16,062 bases of DNA from Thermoflexales bacterium (GTDB lineage: Bacteria; Chloroflexota; Anaerolineae; Fen-1058), in contig JAUQXD010000201.1 of the NCBI GenBank assembly GCA_030834835.1, positions 1 through 16,062 of the forward strand, written 5' to 3'. Position 1 is the first letter of the stretch, and the number at the start of each line of letters is the position of its first letter. The translations under genes and the position numbers were made by a program. Below, piece by piece: positions 1 to 14,689 of this stretch. Under the pieces are notes generated by a model, which was given only the letters and a program-made list of their open reading frames with translations, searched no databases and was not told the origin of the DNA.

Positions 1-513
1 GCCGCCGGCGGCAAGCCGCTGGGCAAGAAAGACCTCGGTCGGTTGGCGATGACGTACGGCAATGTCTACGTCGCGCAGATCGCGATGGGCGCGAACGATG
101 CCCAGACGATCAAGGCCATCGTCGAAGCCGAAGCCTACGACGGCCCGTCGTTGATCATCGCGTACTCGCACTGCATCAACCACGGCATCAACATGGCCAA
201 GGGCATGGAGCAGCAGAAGCTGGCCGTGCAGTCGGCTTACTGGCCGCTGTTCCGCTTCGACCCGCGCCGCGCTGCACACGGTGAAAATCCGTTTGTGCTG
301 GACAGCAAAGCGCCCGCGCTGCCGCTGGAGAAGTACATCTACAACGAGACGCGCTACAAGATGCTGACGCAGAGCAAGCCGGAAGTCGCCGCGCAGTTGC
401 TGGAAGAAGCGCAGGGCGACGTGATCAAGAAGTGGCATCTCTACGAACAGCTGGCCGCGATGAATTACAGCGGCAATGGCGATTCGGCGACGCAGATTAA
501 GGTGACGAAGTAG
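1..513 (+). CDS. nifJ: Pyruvate:ferredoxin (flavodoxin) oxidoreductase, C-terminal part (5' end outside window)
   Basis: The reading frame is open from base 1 to a TAG at 511-513 and gives 170 residues of the C-terminal end of a single-chain pyruvate:ferredoxin oxidoreductase. The family converts pyruvate, CoA and oxidised ferredoxin to acetyl-CoA, CO2 and reduced ferredoxin in the cytoplasm. The recognisable stretch is the thiamine-diphosphate-binding C-terminal domain: [20 protein letters not shown], then [16 protein letters not shown], then [12 protein letters not shown] and [10 protein letters not shown], all hallmarks of NifJ C-termini. The iron-sulfur and pyruvate-binding domains would lie upstream of the window. 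The TTG at 43 is not the start, because the homology runs through it to base 1. A PyrD-like gene follows 59 nt downstream on the same strand, a linkage commonly seen beside nifJ, so the two are probably co-transcribed. Confidence 0.95.
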
Positions 514-554
514 ACCCTCACCCCCTGACCCCTCTCCCGACTTCGGGAGAGGGG
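514..554. repeat. Palindromic CT-rich repeat abutting the nifJ stop codon
   Basis: Directly after the nifJ TAG there is a run of C-rich 8-nt words (ccctcacc, ccctgacc, cctctccc) leading into a perfect 11-bp hairpin: cccctctcccg at 529-539 pairs with cgggagagggg at 544-554 around the loop actt. The 'CCCTCACCCCCTGACCCC...' type of element is, from general knowledge, a dispersed intergenic palindrome found in many environmental bacterial genomes. No T-tract follows, so it is not a canonical intrinsic terminator. It could still attenuate read-through or protect the nifJ mRNA end. The ribosome binding site of the next gene (aaggag, 561-566) is just downstream and is not occluded. Confidence 0.7.
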
Positions 555-572
555 CGTAACAAGGAGCCAAAC

Positions 573-1577
573 ATGATCGATCTATCCACCACCTATATGG
601 GTCTCACTCTGAAGAATCCGCTCGTGCCGTCGGCGTCGCCAATGTCGAAGTCGCTGGATAATATGAAGCGGCTGGAAGATCACGGCGCGGCCGCGATCGT
701 GCTGTATTCGCTGTTTGAGGAGCAGATCGAGCACGAGAGCAAAGAACTGAATCACTACCTGACCTATGGCGCAGAAAGCTACGCCGAGGCCGTGTCGTAC
801 TTCCCCGATCTGGGCGAGTACAACCTGGGGCCGGATCAATACCTCAATCACATTCGCAAGGCTAAAGCAGCGTTGCAGATTCCCGTCATTGCCAGCCTGA
901 ACGGCATCTCAAAGGGTGGCTGGACGCGCTACGCCAAATTGATGGAAGAAGCGGGCGCGGACGGGCTCGAGCTCAACGTCTATCACATCCCGACCGATGG
1001 CTTTGTCAGCAGCGGCGCGGTCGAGCAGATGTACCTGGATCTGGTGCGCGAAGTCAAAGCCACCGTCCAGATTCCCGTCGCCGTGAAGATGATGCATTTC
1101 TTCAGCAGCATTCCCTACATGGCCGCCCAGCTCGATCGGGCCGGGGCCAATGGGCTGGTGATGTTTAATCGCTTCTATCAGCCCGACATCGATCTGGAAA
1201 ACCTGGAAGTCGTCACCAATCTCACGCTGAGCAGCAGCTACGAACTGCGCTTGCGCTTGCGCTGGGTGGCGATCATGTTTGGTCAACTGGTCGCCGACAT
1301 GGCGGTGACCGGCGGCGTCCACACCGCCGAGGATGTCGTCAAGGCGATGATGGTCGGCGCGAAGGTGACGCAAATGGCGTCCGTGCTGCTGCACAACGGC
1401 GTGTCGGCTCTCAGCGATATCCTGGTCGACTTGCAGCGCTGGCTGGAAACGCACGAGTACGAATCGATCGCGCAGATGCAGGGCAGCATGAGCCAGCGTC
1501 ACGTGGCGAATACGGCGGCCTTCGAACGCGCCAACTACATGAAGGTCTTGCAGGCGTTCGAAGTGAATATGGCGTAG
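573..1577 (+). CDS. Dihydroorotate dehydrogenase-like FMN protein (PyrD-like, nifJ-linked)
   Basis: The 334-residue protein is a TIM-barrel flavoprotein of the dihydroorotate dehydrogenase-like family. Visible marks are the N-terminal [19 protein letters not shown], the strands IPVIASLNG (about 103-111), GLELNVY (131-137), IPVAVKMM (167-174) and the phosphate-binding end [19 protein letters not shown] (245-263). The ATG at 573 has a strong Shine-Dalgarno sequence, AAGGAG, 6 nt upstream. True class 1 enzymes carry the catalytic cysteine in an N-x-S-C-P-N motif after the fourth strand. Here that position reads NVYHIP, so ordinary dihydroorotate oxidation is doubtful. In the family this paralogue sits next to nifJ, which suggests a redox role tied to PFOR, but the substrate is unknown. 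The stop codon lies inside a short word array, and a terminator follows about 50 nt later. Confidence 0.9.
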
Positions 1578-1617
1578 TCAGTAGTTTGATAGTCGCGTAG
1601 TCACGTAGTGATAGTTG
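1571..1617. repeat. Degenerate 8-nt word array overlapping the PyrD-like stop codon
   Basis: Successive words ending in tagt run through the end of the gene: ggcgtagt (1571), cagtagt (1579), ttgatagt (1586), cgcgtagt (1594), cacgtagt (1602) and a partial gatagt. The spacing is 8, 7, 8, 8 and 8 nt. The TAG stop at 1575-1577 is part of the first word. No inverted copy is present, so this array does not fold into a long hairpin. It belongs with the other stop-codon-anchored arrays of the window, although the word itself is different. Confidence 0.65.
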
Positions 1618-1623
1618 ACACCG

Positions 1624-1665
1624 AAAACCTCCGGCGGGGCTGATGAAGGACCGTCGGAGGTTTTT
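1624..1665 (+). terminator. Intrinsic terminator after nifJ / PyrD-like operon
   Basis: aaaacctccg (1624-1633) pairs perfectly with cggaggtttt (1655-1664), and the right arm runs into a T5 tract at 1661-1665. The 21-nt loop is larger than usual but the A-tract/stem/T-tract layout is that of a rho-independent terminator. It ends the nifJ-PyrD-like unit and lies about 40 nt before the start of the next gene. That gene must therefore be expressed by read-through or from a promoter that I cannot identify here. Confidence 0.65.
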
Positions 1666-1708
1666 GCATGTACAGATCAGGGACTTCAACTTTCAAGGAG
1701 AGAGTGTC

Positions 1709-3844
1709 ATGCGTTTTTCGAGTCGATGGTTCAAGCAGGTTGTCATTGTAGTAGCAGTGTTGGGCTTGTTGACTGCGGCGTGGCCGAGTGTGGCGCAAGC
1801 CCGGAAGCCTGTTCCAGATCTTCAGCAATTTGGGCCGCTTGAGCAACGCTTCCAGCAGCCCGATAAATTTCTAGATACAGTTTCGGCAAACTTAAAATAT
1901 AGTCCCAATCATGCTGATGTAGGCCATGCAACCCCAACTCAGCTTGCGGGTACTGACCCGCGTTTATGGACAAAGGTTACGTTCGCTTCCTATCGAACCT
2001 CAGACTGGGAAATCTATGTTGCTAACGGCGATGGCAGTCTACCGCAACGCATTACCTACAGTTCCGGCTATGATGGTAGTCCACGCTTTAATCGAGCCGG
2101 CACACAAATCGCTTTTGTCTCCAAGCGCGACGGTCACTACGAGATTTACACGATGAATGCAGACGGTTCCAATCAAAAACGCTTAACCAATTCAAAAACG
2201 AATAAATACGGGCCAACTTGGTCACCAGATGGTACTCAAATTGCTTTCTATGACGACGCCTATGGCCGGGCCGACATTTGGGTGATTAATGCTGACGGGT
2301 CGAATCTACGACAACTCACTTTCTTCAACAGTTGGGATGGGCACCCAGCCTGGTCGCCTGATGGCTCAAAAATTGCCTACATTTCAACTGGCACCGGTGT
2401 ATATGAGTTATGGACTATGAATGCTGACGGGGCAAACCAGACGCGAGTTTATTATGCGCAATATGGCCTCTTATATCCCGACTGGTCTCCCGACGGATCA
2501 AAATTGATATTTAACATCAATTGGGGTGGCGATGGATTCTTAGATATTGGTACCGGAGCTCCTGATGGCACACAGTTCGCAATAATTGCCTCAACGAGTA
2601 CCAATACAGACCTACTAGCTCCAGTATGGGATCCAAGTGGACGGTTCTTCGCGTTTACAAACATCAATTGGATCTACTATCAGGGTAGCTGGTATTGGAC
2701 CGATGCCTATGTCATCGCCCGCGATTTATCCGGTAGCACAACTTGGCCTTTGGCAAACTCTGGTGAAGATTGGTGGGCTAGTTGGCACTCCTTGGACACA
2801 ATCCCACCGTCTTCATCGGCCAGCAGTCCAAACTGGTCGAACTCCGCCAACTTTGTCGTCGCTTGGTCAGGAAGCGATGCGGGGCAGTCTAGCATTGCCA
2901 CCTATGATGTTCAATATCGTGACGGGCCAAATGGCGCTTGGATCGACTGGCTACTGAATACAGCTGATACATCAGGCGTTTTTTCTGGTCGGTATAACCA
3001 TACCTATTACTTCCGCTCCCGCGCCCGCGATTTCGCCAGCAACCTCGAAGCCTATCCCGGCGGCAACGGCGACACCTCAACCACCGTTTATCAGTATTCT
3101 CTCTCCGGCCAAGTCCTTGGCAATCGCAATCAACCCGTGGCCGCCGCATCGGTCGAGACTGCCCCGACGACCATAAACGACAGTCTGTCTCGACACGACG
3201 GCCTATTCGATCTCTACTTTGCGTCGGGCGGCACTTACACGCTCACCACTACTCGCAACGCGTTCGGCGTATTGCCGCCGCTGTTTAATGTGAGTGTCCC
3301 CCTTTCAACTTCCTTGCCAACACTTTATCTGCCCCCGCTCAATGATCAACTCAGCGACGGCCACTTCGAAAGCGGCACGTTAGCGGCCTGGAATCCAATC
3401 GGCCTGCTCACCCCCACGATCACCTCCACCGCGCACACCGGCGAATACGCGGCCCTGTTGGGCGGCATCGTCCCATTGGATACGGTGAGCGGCGGCCCCT
3501 ATCTCAGCGCCATCGAGCAGACCATCACCATGTCCATGACGTTGACCGATGGCACATTATCGCTGTTGTATGAAGTGACTGCCGCCGATCCCCTCAGCGA
3601 TACGCTCACGGCCTATCTCGTCGGCCCGACCGACACGCTGACTTTCACGCTGCCCGTCACGGCAACGGCCTGGACCCATCACTGGTTCGATGTCTCAGCG
3701 TGGACGTCACCCACTGCCACTTTGCGCATCGAGTTATCAACGCCCGACAAAGAGCGCGAGGTCGGCGTCCTCGTCGATGAAGTGACCTGGGGATCGTCGG
3801 TCATCGGTTCACGCCCGATCTATCTGCCCGTCATGCGGCGCTAA
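1709..3844 (+). CDS. Secreted TolB/PD40-type beta-propeller protein with C-terminal sandwich domains
   Basis: The 711-residue product starts at ATG 1709, preceded by AAGGAG (1696-1701). An upstream ATG at 1643 lies inside the terminator and would spoil the signal peptide. Residues 1-31 form a signal peptide (hydrophobic VVIVVAVLGLLTAA, cleavage after AQA). Residues about 90-320 carry WD40-like PD40 propeller repeats: WSPDGTQIAF, WSPDGSKIAY, WSPDGSKLIF, each with a following xxWxxNADGxNxxxLT. Residues 366-460 look fibronectin-III-like, 461-540 resemble a carboxypeptidase-regulatory-like domain, and 545-696 form a jelly-roll-like domain opening with SDGHFESG. The last residues are RPIYLPVMRR. 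Function is unknown; a surface binding role is inferred. Codons in about 1850-2990 are markedly AT-richer (23/60 GC at 2161-2220) than in the 3' part (37/60 at 3481-3540), suggesting domain acquisition. Confidence 0.85.
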   Translation: MRFSSRWFKQVVIVVAVLGLLTAAWPSVAQARKPVPDLQQFGPLEQRFQQPDKFLDTVSANLKYSPNHADVGHATPTQLAGTDPRLWTKVTFASYRTSDWEIYVANGDGSLPQRITYSSGYDGSPRFNRAGTQIAFVSKRDGHYEIYTMNADGSNQKRLTNSKTNKYGPTWSPDGTQIAFYDDAYGRADIWVINADGSNLRQLTFFNSWDGHPAWSPDGSKIAYISTGTGVYELWTMNADGANQTRVYYAQYGLLYPDWSPDGSKLIFNINWGGDGFLDIGTGAPDGTQFAIIASTSTNTDLLAPVWDPSGRFFAFTNINWIYYQGSWYWTDAYVIARDLSGSTTWPLANSGEDWWASWHSLDTIPPSSSASSPNWSNSANFVVAWSGSDAGQSSIATYDVQYRDGPNGAWIDWLLNTADTSGVFSGRYNHTYYFRSRARDFASNLEAYPGGNGDTSTTVYQYSLSGQVLGNRNQPVAAASVETAPTTINDSLSRHDGLFDLYFASGGTYTLTTTRNAFGVLPPLFNVSVPLSTSLPTLYLPPLNDQLSDGHFESGTLAAWNPIGLLTPTITSTAHTGEYAALLGGIVPLDTVSGGPYLSAIEQTITMSMTLTDGTLSLLYEVTAADPLSDTLTAYLVGPTDTLTFTLPVTATAWTHHWFDVSAWTSPTATLRIELSTPDKEREVGVLVDEVTWGSSVIGSRPIYLPVMRR

Positions 3845-3874
3845 TTCAACCTCGCCGCTAAACGCGGCCTGTTA

Positions 3875-3925
3875 AAACATCAAGACCTCGATGGTCCAAC
3901 CAAACCCATCGAGGTCTTGATGTTT
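3875..3925. terminator. 20-bp perfect-stem bidirectional terminator between convergent genes
   Basis: Bases 3875-3894 and 3906-3925 are exact inverted repeats, giving a 20-bp perfect stem with an 11-nt loop (tccaaccaaac). Each arm ends in a short A/T run (aaac on the left, gttt on the right). It sits between the propeller gene (+) and the M23 gene (-), exactly where a shared terminator is expected. A smaller 5-bp hairpin (gccgc 3854-3858 with gcggc 3864-3868) precedes it. The poly-U tail is short on both strands, so the stem stability would have to do most of the work. Confidence 0.75.
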
Positions 3926-3960
3926 CCCGCATCCTGCATCTTGCATCCTGCATCTTCTAC
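3926..3960. repeat. 7-nt word array overlapping the stop codon of the M23 gene
   Basis: Five contiguous 7-nt units: cccgcat, cctgcat, cttgcat, cctgcat and cttctac, with perfect 7-nt spacing from 3926 to 3960. The complement of the M23 gene's TAG stop (3957-3959) lies in the last unit. The array begins at the base after the 20-bp hairpin. No inverted copy of the word is present here. Confidence 0.75.
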
Positions 3961-5807
3961 GGCTTACACCGCGTCTGCACGCTCACCTCATCCACGTACA
4001 GGCTCGTCACCAGGTTGCTGTCCGACATGCCCTTGAGGCTCAACCGCACGCGTCGATTGCCCCACGCCTCGAAGCCCGAAAACACCGCCTGTTCGCTGAC
4101 CCAGCTGCCTTTGACGGGGCTGAGGTTGCTCAATCCGATCTGCGGCGATAACTCGTTGCCTACCTGATTCTCGATCACCACCTCAAAGTGATCGTACACC
4201 ACCGGCTCAGTCTCTTGCGTTGTCAGCAGCCGCTTAAACGTCACCGTCAAGCCTTCCGTATAGTACGGCACCACGAACGCTTGCAGCGCTTCATCGTCGG
4301 CCGTGTCGCGCCCGCCCAGCCACAAACCATACGAGCCAGAGTAAGCGTGCGCCGCGCTGATTAGATCAGACGCATTGTTGCGCACCTGCACCCACGGCGC
4401 ACTGCCTGGCCCGTCCTCGAAGCCGCCGTTCGATAATAATTCTTGCCCCTCCACACAGGCCGGTTCCAGGCGCAGATCAACGCGCACGATCAGCGGCAGA
4501 TTGACCGTGTAAGTCAGCGTGTCCGTCGTCACGAACTTCGGGGCCAGGATCGACGATGCGAGGGACGCCGGGATCAGGCCTTGACCGGTTGTCTGCAACG
4601 AAACCGTCGGGGTATAGGGGTCGGGCAAACCGATCGGCGTCAGCGCCGGGCCGCCGTGCGCCTGAATGAACGCATCGGGGTTGACGTAGCCAGCGTTCGG
4701 CGGAAAGTTGTTGGGATGGATCAAGTAGGTGTAGCCGCGCCCGTAGTAAAACGAGGGTACGCTGTTGCAACTGGTGTTGACTGGATAGATCGCGTGGCCG
4801 TCCAGAAACCACCGCATCTCAAAATGCAGATGTGAATCACCCGGCTGATACAGAATCGTCCCGATCGGTTGGCCGCTCGAAACGAGCTGGCCCTGAAACA
4901 CCGCCACCGTTCCCAGATGCGCGTACATCGAGTAGATGGTGCGGCTGTCGGTGAGCACGTGACTCACGATAACTACGCGCCCCGGATAAGCGGCGTACGT
5001 GTCATCGTAAAACGCCACCTGCCCGTCGGCTGCGGCATAGACCGTCAGACCCGTGGCATCAACCCCGTCCGCGCGATATAGATCCATGCCGCTGTGCAGC
5101 ATGCGCGGCCACGTCACATTGAAGCACTTGCGCGGCGAATCCGGCAGCGCCAGATTGCGAATACCATAGCGCGTGTCGCTGGTGATGATGTTCCACTGCG
5201 TTTCAAACTGAGTGGTTGTTGGCAAATTGAACGGCGACCCAAATTGCTCGGCCACATTGGGGCCAGGCGTTTGCGGCAGTGGCGTCGTAGATGGAGTGGG
5301 AAACAAGTGCGGCAGGCGCGGCAGCCGTGGCTGCCGCGGAATCAATCGGAAAGATTGAAGCGCGTGATCGAAGGCGGCGCGCGCTTCGCGCGTGGCGGGG
5401 GCGGGCTCGATCGAGCCGTGGTCGCCGGCCGCCAACTCGATCTTGATCACCGCGCCGTCGATCTTGATCCAGTATGCCGTCGCCGCGTCGTTGATAGCCG
5501 CCTCCAATCCATTGACCTGTGTCGACTTGAACAGGCCGTTATCGGCGCGCGCCGCCAGAACCTCGGCCAGCGATCGATCGGCCGAGTTATCCAGCACGAC
5601 GATAGCATAGCCCTGATAGGGCGGCTGTTGATTCAGCGCCACGTACACCGCGTCGCCGGCCGCGTCGAGGCGCGCTTCGGCAGGATACTCGATCGCATAA
5701 CCCGCTGCGAAATCGGTGTACGTCAACCAGTCCGTCGATTGCGTGCGAGCGCCGGTCGCCGTCAACAGCCAGACCGCCACGCCGATGATCATCAAATGCA
5801 GTCGCAT
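3957..5807 (-). CDS. Secreted M23-family (LytM-like) metallopeptidase with C-terminal sandwich domain
   Basis: The 616-residue product begins with a signal peptide (residues 1 to about 22, MRLHLMIIGVAVWLLTATGA). ATG 5807 follows AGGGAG in a good position. Residues 26-155 form an uncharacterised N-terminal domain, followed by a Pro-rich linker (157-183). Residues about 210-330 are an M23 peptidase domain with its ligands intact: HSGMD (H238, D242), YAHLG (H297) and HLHFE (H326, H328). The family cleaves peptidoglycan cross-bridges or other glycine-rich peptides outside the membrane using zinc. Residues 455-613 form a jelly-roll-like domain opening NGGFEDG and closing SLYVDEVS, similar in layout to the C-terminal domain of the neighbouring propeller protein. 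An LP-rich strand (TVNLPLIVR, 434-442) precedes it. A cell-wall hydrolase anchored or targeted by its C-terminal domain is the likely role; the substrate is not known. Confidence 0.9.
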   Translation of the reverse strand: MRLHLMIIGVAVWLLTATGARTQSTDWLTYTDFAAGYAIEYPAEARLDAAGDAVYVALNQQPPYQGYAIVVLDNSADRSLAEVLAARADNGLFKSTQVNGLEAAINDAATAYWIKIDGAVIKIELAAGDHGSIEPAPATREARAAFDHALQSFRLIPRQPRLPRLPHLFPTPSTTPLPQTPGPNVAEQFGSPFNLPTTTQFETQWNIITSDTRYGIRNLALPDSPRKCFNVTWPRMLHSGMDLYRADGVDATGLTVYAAADGQVAFYDDTYAAYPGRVVIVSHVLTDSRTIYSMYAHLGTVAVFQGQLVSSGQPIGTILYQPGDSHLHFEMRWFLDGHAIYPVNTSCNSVPSFYYGRGYTYLIHPNNFPPNAGYVNPDAFIQAHGGPALTPIGLPDPYTPTVSLQTTGQGLIPASLASSILAPKFVTTDTLTYTVNLPLIVRVDLRLEPACVEGQELLSNGGFEDGPGSAPWVQVRNNASDLISAAHAYSGSYGLWLGGRDTADDEALQAFVVPYYTEGLTVTFKRLLTTQETEPVVYDHFEVVIENQVGNELSPQIGLSNLSPVKGSWVSEQAVFSGFEAWGNRRVRLSLKGMSDSNLVTSLYVDEVSVQTRCKP

Positions 5808-5826
5808 AACAGTTCTCCCTCACAAT

Positions 5827-5862
5827 AAAAAGTTGGAGGCTGCTGATCTTCCAGCCTCCAAC
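5827..5862 (-). terminator. Intrinsic terminator downstream of hbd (minus strand)
   Basis: gttggaggctg (5832-5842) and cagcctccaac (5852-5862) form a perfect 11-bp stem with a 9-nt loop. On the minus strand the stem is followed by TTTTT (complement of 5827-5831), a textbook rho-independent terminator. It closes the hbd transcript 15-20 nt before the M23 start codon. The right arm contains the same cctccaa word that makes up the adjacent array, so the terminator appears to be built from array words and their inverted copy. Confidence 0.8.
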
Positions 5863-5895
5863 CCCAACCTCCAATTTCCAACTTCCAACCTCTAA
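5855..5895. repeat. 7-nt word array overlapping the hbd stop codon
   Basis: Units cctccaa (5855), ccccaa (5862, 6 nt), cctccaa (5868), tttccaa (5875), cttccaa (5882) and cctctaa (5889) follow one another without gaps. The complement of the hbd TAG stop (5892-5894) is in the last unit. The array touches the terminator hairpin at its far end. Confidence 0.75.
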
Positions 5896-6740
5896 TAACT
5901 ATAAAATCCCCGCCCGCTCTTGCGCCCCAGCAGGCCCGCCGTCACCATCCGGCGTAGTAAGGGTGGAGCCGCGAAGCGCGGGTCTTTGAATTCATTGTAC
6001 ATCGCGTCGCCGATGAACAGACACGTGTCCAGCCCCACGAAGTCCGCTAATGTGAACGGGCCCATCGGGTGGTTGAGGCCCAGCTTGATGCCGGTGTCGA
6101 TATCCTCTTTGGTCGCCACACCGTTTTCCAGCGCGCGGATCGCATCGAACAGATACGGCACCAGCAGCAGATTCACGATGAAGCCGGGATTGTCTTTGGC
6201 GAAGACCAGCTGCTTATTGAGCAGCGCGCCCAGCGTGCGCACTTCGTCCAGCGTTTCATCGCTGGTCAACAGGCCGCGCACGATTTCGATCAGGGGCATG
6301 ACGGGCACCGGGTTGAAGAAGTGCAGCCCCACCACCCGATCGGCCCGCTGCGTCGCCGACGCGATTTCCGTGATCGATAGCGACGACGTGTTGGACGCGA
6401 GGATGGCCTCCGACTTGCAGATCACGTCCAGCTCGGTGAAGAGGGTCTTCTTCAGCGCCATGTTTTCTGTGGCCGCTTCGATGACCAGATCGCAGCCCGC
6501 GAAGTCGGTCAACTGCGTGGTGGTCGTGATGCGGCTCAACGCGGCGTCCGCGTCGGTCTGTGACAATTTGCCGCGCTCCACCCCTTTGCCGAACGATCGT
6601 TTCAGGTAGTTCAGGCCGCGCGCCAGCAGTTCGTCGTTGATCTCGCGCGCGGTGACGTTGACGCCCGCCCGCGCAAAGACCTCCACGATGCCGCTGCCCA
6701 TCTGTCCCATGCCGACCACGCCGACGGTTTGGATTGCCAT
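5892..6740 (-). CDS. hbd: 3-hydroxybutyryl-CoA dehydrogenase
   Basis: The 282-residue protein has the usual length for this family. It interconverts acetoacetyl-CoA and 3-hydroxybutyryl-CoA with NAD(P)H in the cytoplasm. Residues 6-30 give the Rossmann dinucleotide motif (GVVGMGQMGSG). The catalytic residues are all present: S119 in SNTSS, H140 and E152 in GLHFFNPVPVMPLIEIV, and N190 in PGFIVN. The C-terminal domain ends GLLGRKSGRGFYSY, as expected. ATG 6740 has AAAGGAG upstream. A thiolase lies directly upstream on the same strand (95 nt gap), so together they make the first two steps from acetyl-CoA to C4 acyl-CoA, or the last two of beta-oxidation. With PFOR nearby this fits an anaerobic or facultative acetyl-CoA metabolism, but the direction cannot be told from sequence. 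Confidence 0.95.
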   Translation of the reverse strand: MAIQTVGVVGMGQMGSGIVEVFARAGVNVTAREINDELLARGLNYLKRSFGKGVERGKLSQTDADAALSRITTTTQLTDFAGCDLVIEAATENMALKKTLFTELDVICKSEAILASNTSSLSITEIASATQRADRVVGLHFFNPVPVMPLIEIVRGLLTSDETLDEVRTLGALLNKQLVFAKDNPGFIVNLLLVPYLFDAIRALENGVATKEDIDTGIKLGLNHPMGPFTLADFVGLDTCLFIGDAMYNEFKDPRFAAPPLLRRMVTAGLLGRKSGRGFYSY

Positions 6741-6779
6741 GATGACTCCTTTGCGCTAGATTGTTGCTGCTTGAAGCAT

Positions 6780-6840
6780 ACTGCGTAATGCGTGATGCGT
6801 AAGAGACATCCCGTTACGCAGTACGTATTACGCATTATTC
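6780..6840. repeat. Inverted 7-nt word array at the thiolase stop codon
   Basis: Left units actgcgt (6780), aatgcgt (6787), gatgcgt (6794) face right units tacgcag (6815), tacgtat (6822), tacgcat (6829). Spacing is 7 nt throughout, including the two central units. Bases 6780-6802 can pair with 6814-6837 (19 of 23 positions complementary), with an 11-nt loop. The complement of the thiolase TAA stop (6835-6837) is part of the stem, so the stop codon itself would be base-paired in the mRNA. The structure lacks a T-tract but may act as a terminator or 3'-end stabiliser. Confidence 0.75.
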
Positions 6841-8049
6841 TATCTCAATCGCCATCGCCACCGCTTCGCCGCCGCCCAGGCACAGCGTCGCCAGGCCGCG
6901 CTGCAAGCCGCGATCTTTCAACGCATAGATCAACGTGCTCAGCACGCGCGCGCCGCTACACCCCACTGGATGTCCCAGCGCGATCGCGCCGCCGTTGACG
7001 TTGACCTTGTTCCAATCCCAGGCGTGCCCGGCCTGCTCCATGTCGCGCGCATCGGCGATGACCTGCGCGGCGAACGCTTCGTTGATTTCGATCAGATCAA
7101 CGTCGTTCAGCGACCAGTTGATCTTCGTCAATAACCTGGGCATGGCCTTCGCGGGCGCGATGAACAACCATAACGGTTGAACCGCCGCGTGCGTATAACC
7201 GACGATGCGCGCCAGCGGCTTCACCCCCAACTCGCTCGCTCTGGCGCGGCTCATCACGACGACGGCCGCTCCACCGTCGTTCAAGCCCGGCGCATTGCCC
7301 GCCGTCACACGGCCATCGGCTTTGAACGCGGGCTTGAGTTTGCCCAGTACTTCCAGGGATGTATCGCGGCGCGGCCCTTCATCCGTATCGATGATGGTCA
7401 CGCGGCCCTTGGCATCTTTGATTTCGACCGGCGCGATCTCTGCCTTGAATTTGCCTGTCTCGATCGCGGCCACCGCTTTCTGATGGCTCTGGAAAGCGAA
7501 CTCATCCATCTCGGCGCGAGTAACTTCATACTTGTCCGCGATGAATTCAGCCGCGACGCCCATGCTCTGCTTCTCGAAGGGGCACCATAAGCCGTCTTGC
7601 ACCACCGCATCGATCACCTGCGTGTGGCCGTATTTGTGGCCGGTGCGGCCTTCGGGCAGCAGGAACGGCGCAGTGCTCATGCTCTCCATGCCGCCCGCCA
7701 CGTAGATGTCGCCGTCACCGGCTTTGATCATCGAGGCGGCCAACATCGCCGCTTCCAGACCCGAGCCGCACACTTTGTTCACCGTCACCGCGCCCACCGT
7801 GTCGGGCAGCCCCGCGCCGATGGCCGCCTGCCGCGCGGGCGCCTGTCCCGCGCCGGCCGTGACCACCTGACCCATGATCACTTCGTCGATCAACGCGGGA
7901 TCGATGCCGGCGCGTTTCACGGCTTCGCGAATCGCCACTGCGCCCAGCTGCGTGGCAGGGATCGATCCAAATGCGCTCAGGAATTTGCCAATGGGCGTGC
8001 GCGCAGCGCTGACAATCACGGGATCACGATCGGATGGGGAGTGGGTCAT
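6835..8049 (-). CDS. Acetyl-CoA acetyltransferase (thiolase)
   Basis: The 404-residue protein is a full-length degradative/biosynthetic thiolase. The family condenses two acetyl-CoA to acetoacetyl-CoA, or cleaves 3-ketoacyl-CoA. The nucleophilic cysteine is C94 in [10 protein letters not shown], the catalytic histidine is H360 in [12 protein letters not shown], and the second cysteine is C390 in LCLGGG; NEAFAAQ (323-329) is also conserved. The segment [16 protein letters not shown] replaces the more usual MGIGP-type loop, so chain-length preference may differ from the standard acetoacetyl-CoA enzyme. ATG 8049 has GGAGG (complement of 8054-8058) close upstream. It lies upstream of hbd on the same strand. 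Both are probably in one pathway, though an inverted word array at the stop codon separates them. Confidence 0.95.
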
Positions 8050-8066
8050 AGAACCTCCGTGGAAAA

Positions 8067-8156
8067 GTAAATTGGCTACCTAGTAAATTAGTAGATTGAT
8101 CACCGCGTGAATTTCGTAGCGGCTGAACCAATTTACCAATCTACTAATCTACCGCT
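8067..8156. repeat. Inverted 8-nt word array between HIT gene stop and thiolase RBS
   Basis: Left units gtaaattg (8067), gctaccta, gtaaatta (8083), gtagattg (8091) face right units gaaccaat (8125), ttaccaat (8133), ctactaat (8141), ctaccgct (8149), all spaced 8 nt. Bases 8082-8100 pair with 8135-8153 at 16 of 19 positions, with a 34-nt loop. The right end touches the complement of the HIT gene's TGA (8156-8158). The left end stops about 9 nt before the thiolase ribosome binding site. The array therefore fills nearly the whole intergenic gap. Confidence 0.75.
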
Positions 8157-8650
8157 CACTGCTTTGCACATTGCTCAAACGCCGGTTTCAGCCGCGCCCA
8201 CAGATCATTCAAGTTTTCCGGCAGCACGCGCGTTTCGGCGATGATGGGCATGAAATTGGTGTCGCCCGGCCAGCGCGGCACGATGTGAAAATGAAAGTGC
8301 TGATCGATGCCGCCGCCGCTGGCCTTGCCTACGTTGGCGCCCAGGTTGAACGCGTGGGGGTTGGAGGCCAATCGGATGGCGCGCAGACTTAAATTCGTCA
8401 GCAGCATGATCTCCGTCAGCGTGGCTGCATCGAGTTTCTCCGGTGAATCGACGTGCGCATACGGGTTCACCATCACGTGGCCGGTGTTGTAGGGGAAGAT
8501 GTTCATGATGACGTAGGCCAGTTGCCCGCGGTGCAAGATGAGTGTGGTGGCGTCGTCATGCCTGGGCGCTTCGCAAAACACGCACACCCCGTCGGGCGGT
8601 TTGGCCGCGCCCAGAATGTACGCCATGCGATCGCGCCAGATGTGATCCAT
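8156..8650 (-). CDS. HIT-family protein (histidine triad nucleotide hydrolase/phosphorylase)
   Basis: The 164-residue protein carries the histidine triad QHFHFHIVPRW (H118, H120, H122), the middle histidine being the nucleophile in the family. Other family marks are CVFCEAP (C23/C26, a probable zinc site), NIFPYNTGHVMVNPYAHV (50-67) and FNLGANVGKASGGGIDQH (101-118). Proteins of this longer, zinc-containing type act on dinucleoside polyphosphates such as Ap4A, or on adenylated metabolites. The exact substrate cannot be assigned. ATG 8650 is only weakly supported by an AGGGG about 10-14 nt upstream, and an internal ATG at residue 9 is an alternative. It heads the minus-strand group HIT-thiolase-hbd and is divergent from the MscS gene. 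Confidence 0.93.
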   Translation of the reverse strand: MDHIWRDRMAYILGAAKPPDGVCVFCEAPRHDDATTLILHRGQLAYVIMNIFPYNTGHVMVNPYAHVDSPEKLDAATLTEIMLLTNLSLRAIRLASNPHAFNLGANVGKASGGGIDQHFHFHIVPRWPGDTNFMPIIAETRVLPENLNDLWARLKPAFEQCAKQ

Positions 8651-8745: not shown

Positions 8746-9621
8746 ATGACCATCTGGCAAGACCTGGTGACCGGTATGACACAATCGATCAGCGGCGTGC
8801 TGATCGCGCAAATTGTCCTCATCGCCGTGGCGGCCTGGCTGCTGGGCCAGGTCTTAAGCTGGCGGATGCCGCGCCTGTTTGTCGGCCGCGCTCGCCGCAA
8901 CCTCAGCGCCGCCCGCCGCGAGACGCTGTTCAAGCTCATCGGCGGCGCCACGCATGCGGTAGTGTACATCATCGCCATTCTGATGATCCTGTCGCTGTTC
9001 TTTCCCGGCGGCAATGTGCTGACCGCGCTGGGCCTGATCAGCGCGGGCGTGGCGTTTGCCGCGCGCCCTTTCTTCAGTGATGTTATCAGCGGTATCGCGC
9101 TGCTGTTTGACGATCACTACAGCGTGGGCGAGAAGGTGCAGCTGCTGGACGTGAGCGGCTACATCGAAGATGTGCAGCTGCGCTACACCTACATTCGCGG
9201 CGACGGCGGCGAACTGCTGATCGTGCCCAACGGCGAGGTGCGCCTCATCCGCAACTTCAGCCGCAGCGCCTTCTCGCTGGCGTCCGTGCAGGTCACGGTG
9301 CCGCGCGAACAGGTGGCGACCACGCTGTCCATTTTGCGCAAGGTCGCGGCGCAGTTCTATGCCGAAAGCGACAACATCGTGGAGGAGCCGCTGGTGCTCA
9401 GCGAAAGCGGCCTGCTCAGCACCGAGACGCTGCTGACCGTCAAGGTCAAAGCGGAGTACGGTCACGGCGCAAAAGTGCGCACGCATTTGATCACACGCAT
9501 CCATAAGGCGCTGGGCGAGCAGAGCATCAGCGCCACGCCGGAGCCTACGCCCGAGCGAGCCACGGTGCCTATCAATACGGCTGAAGTCCGCGCCGCCCTG
9601 CGCAAGAAAGGCGATCTGTGA
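8746..9621 (+). CDS. MscS-family mechanosensitive ion channel
   Basis: The 291-residue protein is a small-conductance mechanosensitive channel, a membrane protein that releases solutes on osmotic downshock. Three hydrophobic helices are visible: about 17-35, 68-86 and 91-108. The third is the Gly/Ala-rich pore helix (LTALGLISAGVAFAARP) followed by the family signature FFSDVISGIALLFDDHYSVGEKV. The cytoplasmic beta domain contains SGYIEDVQLRYTYIRGDGGE and LIVPNGEVRLIRNFSR. The C-terminal tail (262-291) is Pro/charged and ends RKKGDL. ATG 8746 is unusual in having no Shine-Dalgarno site and a -10-like box 7 nt upstream. The TGA overlaps the ATG of birA by one base (TGATG), so translation is probably coupled. 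Confidence 0.93.
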   Translation: MTIWQDLVTGMTQSISGVLIAQIVLIAVAAWLLGQVLSWRMPRLFVGRARRNLSAARRETLFKLIGGATHAVVYIIAILMILSLFFPGGNVLTALGLISAGVAFAARPFFSDVISGIALLFDDHYSVGEKVQLLDVSGYIEDVQLRYTYIRGDGGELLIVPNGEVRLIRNFSRSAFSLASVQVTVPREQVATTLSILRKVAAQFYAESDNIVEEPLVLSESGLLSTETLLTVKVKAEYGHGAKVRTHLITRIHKALGEQSISATPEPTPERATVPINTAEVRAALRKKGDL

Positions 9622-10472
9622 TGCTCACGACCGATCTCGTCCGTGCCGCGCTGCGCGACATGCCGTTGATCTCGATCGTCGAACATCACGCCTCGATCGG
9701 TTCCACCAACGATCGAGCGCGCGAACTGGCGAACGCGGGCATGCGGGCGCAAACTGCTGCGCCCGAAATCGCGTTGATTTCCGCCGACGAACAACTCAGC
9801 GGGCGCGGGCGGCAAAATCGAGCGTGGTTCACGCCCCCCGGTACAGCGCTGGCGATCTCGCTGCTGACCCGACCGGTCATCGCCCCTCAACACGCGATGC
9901 GCCTCACCATGCTGGCCGGCCTCGCCACCGTCGAGGGCATCGAGCAAGCGACGGGGCTGCGGCTCGATCTCAAGTGGCCGAATGACGTGGTGGCAATTCA
10001 TAATTCACAATTCACAGTGCACAATGCTCAGCCTTCAGCCTTCAGCCTTCAGCCATTGAAAGTCGGTGGAATCCTGACCGAAGCCTCATTTCAGGGCGAT
10101 GGATTAGAGTACGCCGTCGTCGGGATGGGCATCAACGTCAACGTCGATTTCAGCAGTAATGCCGACCTGCGCGACATCGCCACGAGTTTGAATACGCTGC
10201 GCGGGAACCCAATCGATCGCGCCGTTGTATTGAAAGAGATCGTCGCCGCTTTCGTCGAACGCTATGCCTGGTTGAACGACGGCGATCGATTGCGCGAAGC
10301 GTGGGCCGCGCGGCTGATCAACCTGGGACGCGACATTCGCGTGCAGTTGGACGACACGATCCTCACCGGTCGTTCAGAAAACGTCGATACGGATGGCGCG
10401 TTGTTGTTGCGCACGCCGGATGGACAATTACACCGTTTGCTCTCGGGGGATGTGACCCTCCACAACCTATGA
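9621..10472 (+). CDS. birA: Biotin--[acetyl-CoA-carboxylase] ligase with in-frame repeat insertion
   Basis: The 283-residue protein attaches biotin to the carrier domain of acyl-CoA carboxylases through biotinyl-AMP. It lacks the N-terminal DNA-binding domain of the E. coli bifunctional BirA, so it is a stand-alone (monofunctional) ligase. Motifs are GSTNDRA (27-33), the biotinyl-AMP loop GRGRQNR (61-67), KWPND (118-122), KVGGILTE (147-154, K147 being the expected biotin-contacting lysine) and GMGINVNV (168-175). Between KWPND and KVGG the family usually has a few residues; here there are about 23, encoded by a 7-nt word array. Start: ATG 9621 (TGATG overlap with the MscS gene) is preferred to GTG 9618, with GAAAGG about 10 nt upstream. 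The stop overlaps the next gene by ATGA. Confidence 0.93.
   Translation: MLTTDLVRAALRDMPLISIVEHHASIGSTNDRARELANAGMRAQTAAPEIALISADEQLSGRGRQNRAWFTPPGTALAISLLTRPVIAPQHAMRLTMLAGLATVEGIEQATGLRLDLKWPNDVVAIHNSQFTVHNAQPSAFSLQPLKVGGILTEASFQGDGLEYAVVGMGINVNVDFSSNADLRDIATSLNTLRGNPIDRAVVLKEIVAAFVERYAWLNDGDRLREAWAARLINLGRDIRVQLDDTILTGRSENVDTDGALLLRTPDGQLHRLLSGDVTLHNL
9995..10054. repeat. In-frame 7-nt word array inside birA
   Basis: Sixty bases show strict 7-nt periodicity: aattcat (9995), aattcac (10002 and 10009), agtgcac (10016), aatgctc (10023), agccttc (10030, 10037, 10044) and a final agcc. The word changes from an aattcac type to an agccttc type through two intermediate units. Sixty nt is 20 codons, so the frame is kept. 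The encoded residues 125-145 are His/Asn/Gln/Ser/Phe-rich and unlike any part of the ligase family. It is the same kind of array seen at the gene ends, but here within a reading frame. Confidence 0.85.
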
Positions 10473-13256: not shown

Positions 13257-14689
13257 GTCCCGACATCGAGTGGCGCGTTGGCGACGACAACGCCGGCCAG
13301 GAAACAATTGTGCGTATCAAACCGCCTGCACCGCCGCGCTGGCATCGACTCGCGCTGTTGGCCGTGGTAAGCCTGGGCGTGGGCTTAGGCGTCACCTACG
13401 CTTCGATCCCTGAGCCGCCCAGGCCGCCGCTGACGCCGACACCGCGGCCTACGGCCATCGTTGTTCCCAGACCTACTCTGCCGCCGGTACTTTCGGCCTC
13501 ATTGCAGGCCACTTCGCTGGAAGCCGCGATCGAACGGGATGCTCTGACCCTGGCTGATCATGCGGGCGAAAACAACTTCGACTTAAGGTTAACGGGCCTT
13601 GATACGATCGCCGATGAAGATCGAGCGAGTTCGTATTACGATTTACTGTCGGCGAGCGGGCGTTGGGGCCGCGACGGCGATCCATCGTTCAAAATTGATG
13701 CAACGGGCATGCTGCCCGATGGCACCACCTGGGTTGAGATACAGCAAGCTCGTCACGGCGTCAATTTCAGGCAGACCCGTTTCTATCGCCTTGACGATCA
13801 ACGCTGGCAGATGAGGCTACCGTCGCGCACCTTCTGGGGTGGTCACTTCCGCGCCATCAATACGCTCAGTTTGAGTCCAACGCTGAACAGCCCGCTCATC
13901 TCATTTGAGATGGTGTATCCACTTGAAGACGAAACTTTGATTCCGCTCGTGGCCGATCGGTTTTCGCGCGCCTTCAAGTATCTGTGCATCGAGTTAGGTT
14001 GCCCGATCAAAGACTCGCCCAGCCTGGCGTGGGGCCAACCGATCGCGTTGACGGTGTCGATCCGCGCCACCGCGCCGTACGCGGTACGCGATACGGGCCA
14101 CACGGTTTCGGTGACGATCCCATCGCCACGGGTGACCGGCTACTACGAAGTGCCTGAGACTCAGGGCGATCCGATCGAGTCGATGGCATTTGACAGCTTG
14201 CTCGCACCCGCGGCGCGGCTGGCCGCCGGCTATGCCGCTCACTGGCCGGATGATGATCATGGAGCGTTGTTGTTGAACGCCATCATCGATTGGCTGCGCG
14301 TGCGCGTGTCGGACGAATACGCCTTGTCGCCGGTGCTGGTCCAGCCCACGCGCCATGGCTCGGCCAGTCCTGCGTTGCGACTGAACGGCACGGCGACGCG
14401 GGTCCACTATCAGCAGTTGCTGGCCGACGAGGATTTGCTGCCGCTGGAAACGATCTGGCGTTGGCGCCCGGACGATGCGCTGTTGAGCGGTTCAACTAAT
14501 CTGGCGGAGAATGAAGCCGAGGCGTTGATTGCTTTTCTGGATCAACAGTTCGGCGGCGACAGCGTGATCAGATTTCTGCGCACGCTGGGCACAACCGATT
14601 CGCTACCGCTCGCGATCGAGCGGGCGCTGGTTGTCAACTACAGCGACTTTGTGATCGGGTGGGAACAGTGGATTGGAAAACAAGATTGA
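13253..14689 (+). CDS. MSPDxEW membrane protein, paralogue 3
   Basis: The 478-residue product starts at ATG 13253, overlapping the previous stop by ATGA; an upstream in-frame start at 13232 lies inside paralogue 2 and is rejected. The cytosolic peptide MSPDIEWRVG...QETIV...PPRWHR is followed by a TM helix (32-50) and a Pro-rich linker (52-78). The SnoaL-like segment is the most diverged (DALTLADHAG, NFRQTRFYRL, RTFWGG). The peptidase-MA-like half has the conserved LCIELGC pair (C245, C250), VTIPSPRVTGYYE, and AFDSLLAP at the expected HExxH site, again without ligands. The end (LIAFLDQQFGGDSVIRFLRTLG, FVIGWEQWIG) is conserved. It is the last gene of the plus-strand run and converges on the AT-rich ORF, with no terminator that I can see. 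Confidence 0.8.
   Translation: MSPDIEWRVGDDNAGQETIVRIKPPAPPRWHRLALLAVVSLGVGLGVTYASIPEPPRPPLTPTPRPTAIVVPRPTLPPVLSASLQATSLEAAIERDALTLADHAGENNFDLRLTGLDTIADEDRASSYYDLLSASGRWGRDGDPSFKIDATGMLPDGTTWVEIQQARHGVNFRQTRFYRLDDQRWQMRLPSRTFWGGHFRAINTLSLSPTLNSPLISFEMVYPLEDETLIPLVADRFSRAFKYLCIELGCPIKDSPSLAWGQPIALTVSIRATAPYAVRDTGHTVSVTIPSPRVTGYYEVPETQGDPIESMAFDSLLAPAARLAAGYAAHWPDDDHGALLLNAIIDWLRVRVSDEYALSPVLVQPTRHGSASPALRLNGTATRVHYQQLLADEDLLPLETIWRWRPDDALLSGSTNLAENEAEALIAFLDQQFGGDSVIRFLRTLGTTDSLPLAIERALVVNYSDFVIGWEQWIGKQD

Follow-up and report, generated by a model that had tools for sequence, protein, structure and literature searches.

The DNA considered here raises the question of what builds short arrays of degenerate 7- or 8-nt words at the ends of genes, where the period is held from one gene to the next and the word is not. 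The window, i.e., the whole 16,062-nt stretch that was analyzed, is contig JAUQXD010000201.1 (C1153 in our numbering) of the Thermoflexales bacterium assembly GCA_030834835.1, which comprises 6.48 Mb in 1452 contigs and is about 91% complete and 7% contaminated. An initial annotation of its sequence had described such arrays, each anchored at a stop codon and each with a word of its own, at six consecutive gene ends. Our analysis revealed that many words within a single genome follow one polarity rule and that words turn over at persistent sites, both at gene ends and within proteins. The gene ends of the window are as follows.

515 to 554, plus strand: end of the nifJ-like gene, two similar 8-nt words (515-530) and hairpin arms at 529-540 and 543-554
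1575 to 1615, plus strand: end of the DHO/PyrD-like gene, single array with a TAGT core at 1575, 1582, 1590, 1598, 1606 and 1612
1643 to 3844: PD40/TolB-like gene between the DHO and M23 genes, its end without an array of its own and with a hairpin in common with M23
3922 to 3959, minus strand: end of the M23 gene, 7-nt array with the sense word GATGCAG, reaching into the stop codon at 3957-3959
5825 to 5897, minus strand: end of the 3-hydroxyacyl-CoA dehydrogenase (HBD) gene, 7-nt array TTGGARG starting in the stop codon (scan interval 5860-5897)
6778 to 6838, minus strand: end of the thiolase gene, inverted 7-nt arrays TGCGTAA / TTACGCA with 25-nt arms, 84% complementary
8083 to 8158, minus strand: end of the HIT gene, inverted 8-nt arrays GTAGATTG / CAATCTAC with 16-nt arms, 94% complementary

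The DHO-like, M23, HBD, thiolase, HIT and PD40/TolB-like genes have Pfam support, and the name of the nifJ-like gene is the label of the initial annotation. Arrays were detected with Tandem Repeats Finder (TRF) plus our own scan for four units at ≥75%, and the scan found those of M23, HBD and thiolase (period 7) and of HIT (period 8). It placed the thiolase array at 6775-6803 with the inverse arm at 6814-6838, and the HIT array at 8126-8158 with the inverse arm at 8083-8098; the last unit of the HBD array forms one arm of a hairpin that is followed by TTTTT, and the M23 array has no inverted partner. The DHO/PyrD-like array, absent from the four-unit scan, was recognized by reading the sequence, in which the cores follow one another in steps of 7, 8, 8, 8 and 6 nt and the first copy lies within the stop codon; TRF reported just 2.5 units of period 8 there (1590-1609). 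At the nifJ-like end neither TRF nor the scan reported an array. Thus four of the six ends were recovered by the scan and a fifth by reading, the nifJ-like end dropped out, and the genes do not stand strictly in a row, as the PD40/TolB-like gene intervenes. The hairpin at 529-554 of the nifJ-like end has its C-rich arm first, i.e., the polarity opposite to that of the arrays described below.

The four-unit criterion was applied to larger samples, with Markov shuffles as the null: a first sample of the source genome (27 readable of 41 contigs, 201 kb, including the window and one contig picked for a match), a fresh and unselected one of that genome (187 kb from 28 readable contigs out of 40 taken at even steps), and a sample of G001, a genome of the same genus (20 contigs, 176 kb). 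Mostly-N contigs were left out (14 of 40 in the first own sample, 12 of 40 in the fresh one, 2 of 20 in the genome G004). The fixed period was borne out, since 7-nt arrays numbered 28 in the first sample against 0-1 in shuffles, 26 in the fresh sample against 0-2, and 13 in G001 against 0-2. Five 8-nt arrays were found in the first sample, with 0-2 at each longer period tested. Arrays of period 6, numbering 7-13 in each sample, likewise exceeded the shuffles, and where examined most fell in coding DNA (6/7 in the source genome, 9/11 in G004), which indicates that protein repeats contribute some arrays. As a general account, however, an artefact of chance or coding bias has a negligible probability, being refuted for periods 7 and 8 by an excess of more than 10-fold over shuffles in the own samples and by the near-complete polarity.

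In particular, arrays with an inverted partner carried the G-rich word first and its C-rich complement second in 12:0 cases in the source genome, 8:0 in G004 and 33:1, with 8 ties, in named taxa, where in these three counts an element may have been entered twice and the loci of the named taxa had been selected with a single word; the fresh sample gave 5:1 with one tie, and G001 4:0. Because a hairpin reads alike on both strands, this order is a property of the element and not of gene direction. Of the plain intergenic hairpins in these samples, 38 were G-first and 43 C-first, the numbers for array hairpins being 26 and 4. The arms were near-mirrored (median identity 0.86 in 59 hairpins). On the sense strand, stop-adjacent arrays were G-rich in 12 cases, C-rich in 4 and tied in 2 in the source genome, with 4, 2 and 2 in G004, and stops in all three frames were present on the G-rich strand of 29 of 53 arrays and on the C-rich strand of 5 of 53. 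Neighboring arrays of different words within the family of the source genome (n = 7) were G-then-C in five cases, C-C in two and C-then-G in none. Compound ends were also seen (L270, L275 and L073:569), in which a first array of AATGACC, AATGATC or AATGC type is followed by the C-rich complement of TTGGAAG; this arrangement is kept in three genomes.

The words differ between loci as initially proposed, but they are not private to a locus, as the TTGGARG pattern TTGGARGTTGGARGTTGG with up to 2 mismatches had 185 overlapping matches in the source genome versus 62 for the reversed control. With 1 mismatch the pattern was present in 10 of 41 related genomes, including all five of the source family, in a survey in which one genome (G022) had a high control. 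A 21-nt query of TTGGARG type matched at least 119 stretches in named species genomes, and among the listed matches the record titles named Bacteroidetes, Acidobacteria, Chloroflexi, Oceanospirillaceae, Verrucomicrobia, Pirellulaceae and candidate phyla. The pattern ARTGANN occurred in 9 of 41 genomes, a statement of presence only, since array genomes are rich in the reversed pattern too, which makes it a poor control. The array catalogue as a whole showed a broad and graded word set, and most words, e.g., AATGATC or TGCGTAA, contain no run of three G. Among the units of L296-L325 and the ARTGANN listing, a fixed core was accompanied by variable last bases, AATGA being mostly continued by N and C, and AGTGA by N and G or A.

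Placement was assessed on genes called by our own script, with an element counted as stop-proximal when its edge lay within -30 to +40 nt of a stop codon, against 1000 random intergenic placements. Stop-proximal elements numbered 11 of 27 in the fresh sample (3.5 expected), a count reached by 0/1000 placements; the first sample without the window and the picked contig gave 11 of 20 versus 4.2 (4/1000), and G001 8 of 16 versus 4.0 (27/1000). Anchoring at stops therefore exceeds chance but is no absolute rule, given that 9 of the 27 fresh-sample elements lay within called genes, some arrays run in frame through proteins, and the excess in G004, considered below, was not significant. Start codons were mildly enriched in the fresh sample (9 versus 4.2 expected; 14/1000), with no clear enrichment in the first own, G001 and G004 samples. 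An array followed within 90 nt of the stop codon at about 1 in 8 gene ends in the fresh sample (15/114) and G001 (17/129), at 27/142 in the first sample and at 14/150 in G004. A stop trinucleotide occurred in register with the gene's own stop in 7 of 25 stop-adjacent arrays versus 2.5 expected (P 0.007) and in 3 of 15 orthologous arrays versus 1.7 (P 0.23), which is no more than suggestive of the stop codon as the seed of the array word. Orthologues without an array mostly stop at the same codon, indicating that the arrays did not make the stop; an artefact by which arrays supply new stops was accordingly rejected as the main cause of the stop proximity.

To follow the sites across genomes, 22 gene ends of the source genome (17 sampled, 5 from the window) were compared with 61 orthologous ends in G001 to G004, with matches dropped when they had <50% identity or ended before the final 25 residues of the query piece were reached; since short or decayed arrays escape detection, the array counts are lower bounds. 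By the strict cut, orthologous ends carried an array in 8/14 cases in G001, 2/17 in G002, 3/11 in G003 and 9/19 in G004. Array ends need an intergenic gap, which could inflate such persistence, but the excess held against the base rates of ends with gaps of ≥60 nt, namely 15/83 in G001 (P 0.004) and 9/84 in G004 (P 0.0007). G002 and G003 together, with 5/28, gave no excess over the G004 base rate (P 0.16). Among the 25 pairs with arrays on both sides by a looser cut, 14 differed in period or matched at ≤5/7 positions and 11 matched at ≥6/7, a 6/7 match being reached by 15% of unrelated pairs. Array sites thus persist in the two best cases, G001 and G004, and their words are partly kept and often replaced.

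Individual ends illustrate this turnover. The thiolase end has TGCGTAA in the source genome (three units per arm) and in G001 (two per arm), a GAGTAAC-like word in G002 and AGTGATG in G004, and the HIT end has an 8-nt word in the source genome and a 7-nt word in G001. At the end L071:12641, AATGACC of the source genome is matched by a non-heptamer hairpin in G001, TTGGATG in G002, TTGGAGA in G003 and GAGTGAC in G004. Empty orthologous sites, for which the initial annotation had proposed a check, were indeed found, at the HBD end in G001, G002 and G004 and at L048:8439 in G001 and G004. At the orthologous ends L248, L242 and L245, non-heptamer hairpins of CATTGCGAGC, ACGGATTA and GCCGAGAACGC types stand where relatives hold arrays, i.e., the sites accept other hairpins too.

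The turnover extends into proteins. The window itself contains one such array, overlooked in the initial annotation.

9991 to 10060, plus strand: two back-to-back C-rich 7-nt arrays (AATTCAC-type and TCAGCCT), in frame within the BirA-like open reading frame at 9618-10472

The 69-nt stretch encodes VAIHNSQFTVHNAQPSAFSLQPL between LKWPNDV and KVGGILTE in a protein named BirA-like from its sequence, and in the orthologue of G003 this place is taken by 48 nt without periodicity. Other in-frame arrays were found in TrpS-, formate-dehydrogenase-, O-antigen-ligase-, MurE- and glycosyltransferase-like proteins, likewise named by reading and not from a database. The glycosyltransferase-like site holds an in-frame 7-nt array in 5/5 genomes (39, 39, 60, 45 and 45 nt) with four word types: CTTCCAA in the source genome and G001, CAATCAG/CAAGCAG in G002, CGATCAG/CATTCAG in G003, and ATTCCGC in G004. 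For the O-antigen-ligase-like site, our script left the G001 and G004 rows unsettled, and the G004 site was read from the protein-array listing.

With respect to the origin of the arrays, we favor their construction by slippage in 7- or 8-nt steps together with fold-back copying of the G-rich strand, and their persistence, probably, where they do little harm; we put the probability of this explanation at about 0.5. Polymerase slippage would make the units, and a G-rich 3' end that folds back on itself would be copied into the second arm, which would explain the near-mirrored arms and the constant G-then-C order. An existing array or hairpin may render its site hot for the next one, and the placement behind stop codons and in protein loops would reflect tolerance, the cell probably tolerating the arrays without needing them; some of the hairpins may have taken on the role of transcription terminators, as the HBD stem with its TTTTT might have. 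In one element compared between the source genome and G001, the loop and flanks were alignable and the arms differed by 7-nt and 8-nt gaps plus base changes. A genome-wide search with that element, in which 40 of 61 and 40 of 47 candidates were scored, recovered the whole element at no site other than its own and that of its orthologue, and the loops of four TTGGARG hairpins had nothing in common (loop score 4.33 versus 4.30 shuffled), which together favor local growth and copying over transposition.

Several observations weigh against this explanation. Nine further matches of the same search extended over the two arms and the part between them at 69-76% identity, the rest covering one arm. 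No partner was detected for 23 of 30 arrays in the fresh sample and 16 of 20 in G001, so that fold-back is not universal; plain hairpins in coding DNA were also G-first (22:12); and the order of different-word neighbors in other taxa was loose (29 G-then-C, 11 C-then-G). In G004 without its three picked contigs, just 4 of 17 elements were stop-proximal versus 1.9 expected (90/1000, not significant). Slippage alone does not predict that distant taxa have word families in common, that the period at a single site changes, as at the HIT end, or that congeners differ by a whole new word, and fold-back alone likewise leaves the word sharing of distant taxa and the period-changing replacement unexplained.

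The alternative that the arrays are functional RNA hairpins at 3' ends, selected as terminators or mRNA stabilizers so that any stem-forming word suffices, would account for sites that persist while their words change and for the mostly G-rich sense strand of stop-adjacent arrays. The six window ends fold at z -2.8 to -5.7, with a separate hairpin included in two of the folds. The HBD stem has a T-run directly behind it, and the thiolase and HIT stems have none. Nevertheless, arm mismatches were hardly biased toward wobble, with G.U-compatible versus A.C changes of 29:25 in the source family and 51:43 in other taxa, and selection for RNA pairing is therefore not visible, though single hairpins fold well. 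Arrays also lie inside proteins, terminator-like sites in the region were no more numerous than in shuffles (7 versus 6.6), an Rfam search returned nothing at the gathering threshold, and the DHO and M23 arrays precede separate hairpins.

1624 to 1664, plus strand: terminator-like hairpin 3' of the DHO array and separate from it, arms at 1624-1637 and 1651-1664, then a T-run
3875 to 3925, no strand assigned: perfect 20-nt hairpin in the interval where the PD40/TolB-like and M23 genes converge

We thus consider selected RNA hairpins a doubtful explanation, and the family of 3'-end RNA elements suggested by the initial annotation was not supported, given the lack of a clear wobble-compatible excess in the stem arms. 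The mobile system suggested in the same place fared no better. Cassettes of the MITE, REP/REPIN or RPE kind, moved by a trans-acting enzyme with gene ends as targets, would fit the dispersed copies, the inverted arms, the in-frame copies in proteins, the empty orthologous sites and the takeover of a site by other cassettes, non-heptamer hairpins among them, and Y1 transposase domains occur in 33 of 41 genomes and in 4 of 5 of the source family. They are unlikely, however, in view of the full-length recovery of the searched element, among the 40 candidates scored per genome, only at its own site and at its orthologue, the unshared loops, the variable arm lengths and ends, and a Y1 transposase that is equally common in genomes without these words and was not found in G001 (73% complete), which has arrays.

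A further possibility starts from head-to-head telomere fusions, in which a G-rich word is followed by its C-rich complement. By analogy, an enzyme could extend the two 3' ends at a break with templated repeats, and the joining of these ends would leave such a pair, and a bacterial telomere-like system might then write G-rich 7- or 8-nt words at breaks, with the arrays as scars and each new break overwriting the word; that such a system exists is a long shot. Templated addition would fit the constant G-then-C order, the same order in different-word pairs of the source family, and the block change of the word at one site. Against it stand arms that usually share one word and are near-mirrored, a broad graded word set that fits no single template, the 29:11 order of different-word neighbors in other taxa, and the lack of a reverse transcriptase domain in the source genome and G003 (both about 91% complete), and we regard it as very improbable. 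As makers of the arrays, three candidates were rejected: reverse transcriptase (RVT_1 in 16 of 41 genomes, none in the source genome or G003), Y1 transposase (Y1_Tnp in 33 of 41, with or without the words) and Ku (1 of 41, that one without the TTGGARG word).

Among known systems, the STRR repeats of filamentous cyanobacteria are heptameric tandem repeats, mostly intergenic, and we know of no account of word change at persistent sites in them. The kinship with STRR-type repeats put forward in the initial annotation was supported, the present arrays being tandem, dispersed and mainly intergenic heptamers; in common with repeats of the STRR and Rehm type they further show stop proximity (11/27 versus 3.5, weaker in G004) and convergent pairs, with an additional period of 8 and with the G-rich strand first, an order established for the present arrays. 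The repeats GGGAATC and GGGGA(C/T)T of Xanthomonas and Nostoc were described by Rehm et al. (2015; PMC4692102), according to whom the GGGAATC heptamers of Xanthomonas are stop-proximal, lie downstream of genes on the coding strand, often form convergent pairs (70 and 75 cases) and in two species mostly share their flanking genes, with varying length and sequence. Contrary to the initial supposition, a stop-proximal version was thus on record, and stop proximity with convergent pairs was already known for one word (PMC4692102); the replacement of words as a block was known from a single intron stem of Nostoc (PMC4476775). Both sets of arrays consist of degenerate, dispersed, G-rich heptamers, but the Xanthomonas and Nostoc repeats are reported with one word per species, a preference for four units and quadruplex formation (PMC4692102), whereas here many words and two periods coexist per genome, copies run in frame through proteins, and orthologous sites hold different words.

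The P6b stem of the Nostoc trnL intron, with heptamers of Class I (TDNGATT) and Class II (NNTGAGT), is similarly a fixed-site hairpin in which the word class is repeatedly replaced as a block with little change in the fold (Kaasalainen et al., 2015; PMC4476775), but it concerns one intron site in one group and not many gene ends and protein loops. The TAACTGA repeats of marine Beggiatoaceae, scattered also in Cyanobacteria and Bacteroidetes, resemble the present arrays as intergenic heptamers whose forward repeats hold stops in all frames, and differ in having one fixed word that lies mostly upstream of start codons, related heptamers being rarely or never repeated (MacGregor, 2015; PMC4679880). 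Borg tandem repeats are a further relative in kind, differing in units of about 18-21 nt in the examples given, perfect copies and no inverted word pairs in the available portion of the report (PMC9879509). REP/REPIN elements with RAYT do not correspond to the arrays, as one element and four loops gave no conserved palindrome across dispersed copies and Y1 transposase does not track the repeats. Rickettsia palindromic elements share with them the in-frame insertion in proteins but not the conserved element sequence within a family. The literature searched, with most subscription journals outside its coverage, held no account of these arrays in Chloroflexota, of word switching at gene ends, or of a genome whose many words share one polarity and are replaced at persistent sites behind genes and within proteins.

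Heptamer repeats have so far been described per word and per species, and here one genome family holds many words under the same rules: 7 or 8 nt, the G-rich word first, beside stops, and a site that is kept while its word changes. These common rules make the question of the array builder testable in close strains, which can be compared for gained units, mirrored arms and words replaced as a block. Through in-frame arrays such as those of the BirA-like and TrpS-like proteins, new protein segments arise, and so do errors of annotation. A further 7-nt array (CGCGGTA) lies at 14073-14101 of the window within a called gene, and may be due to chance.

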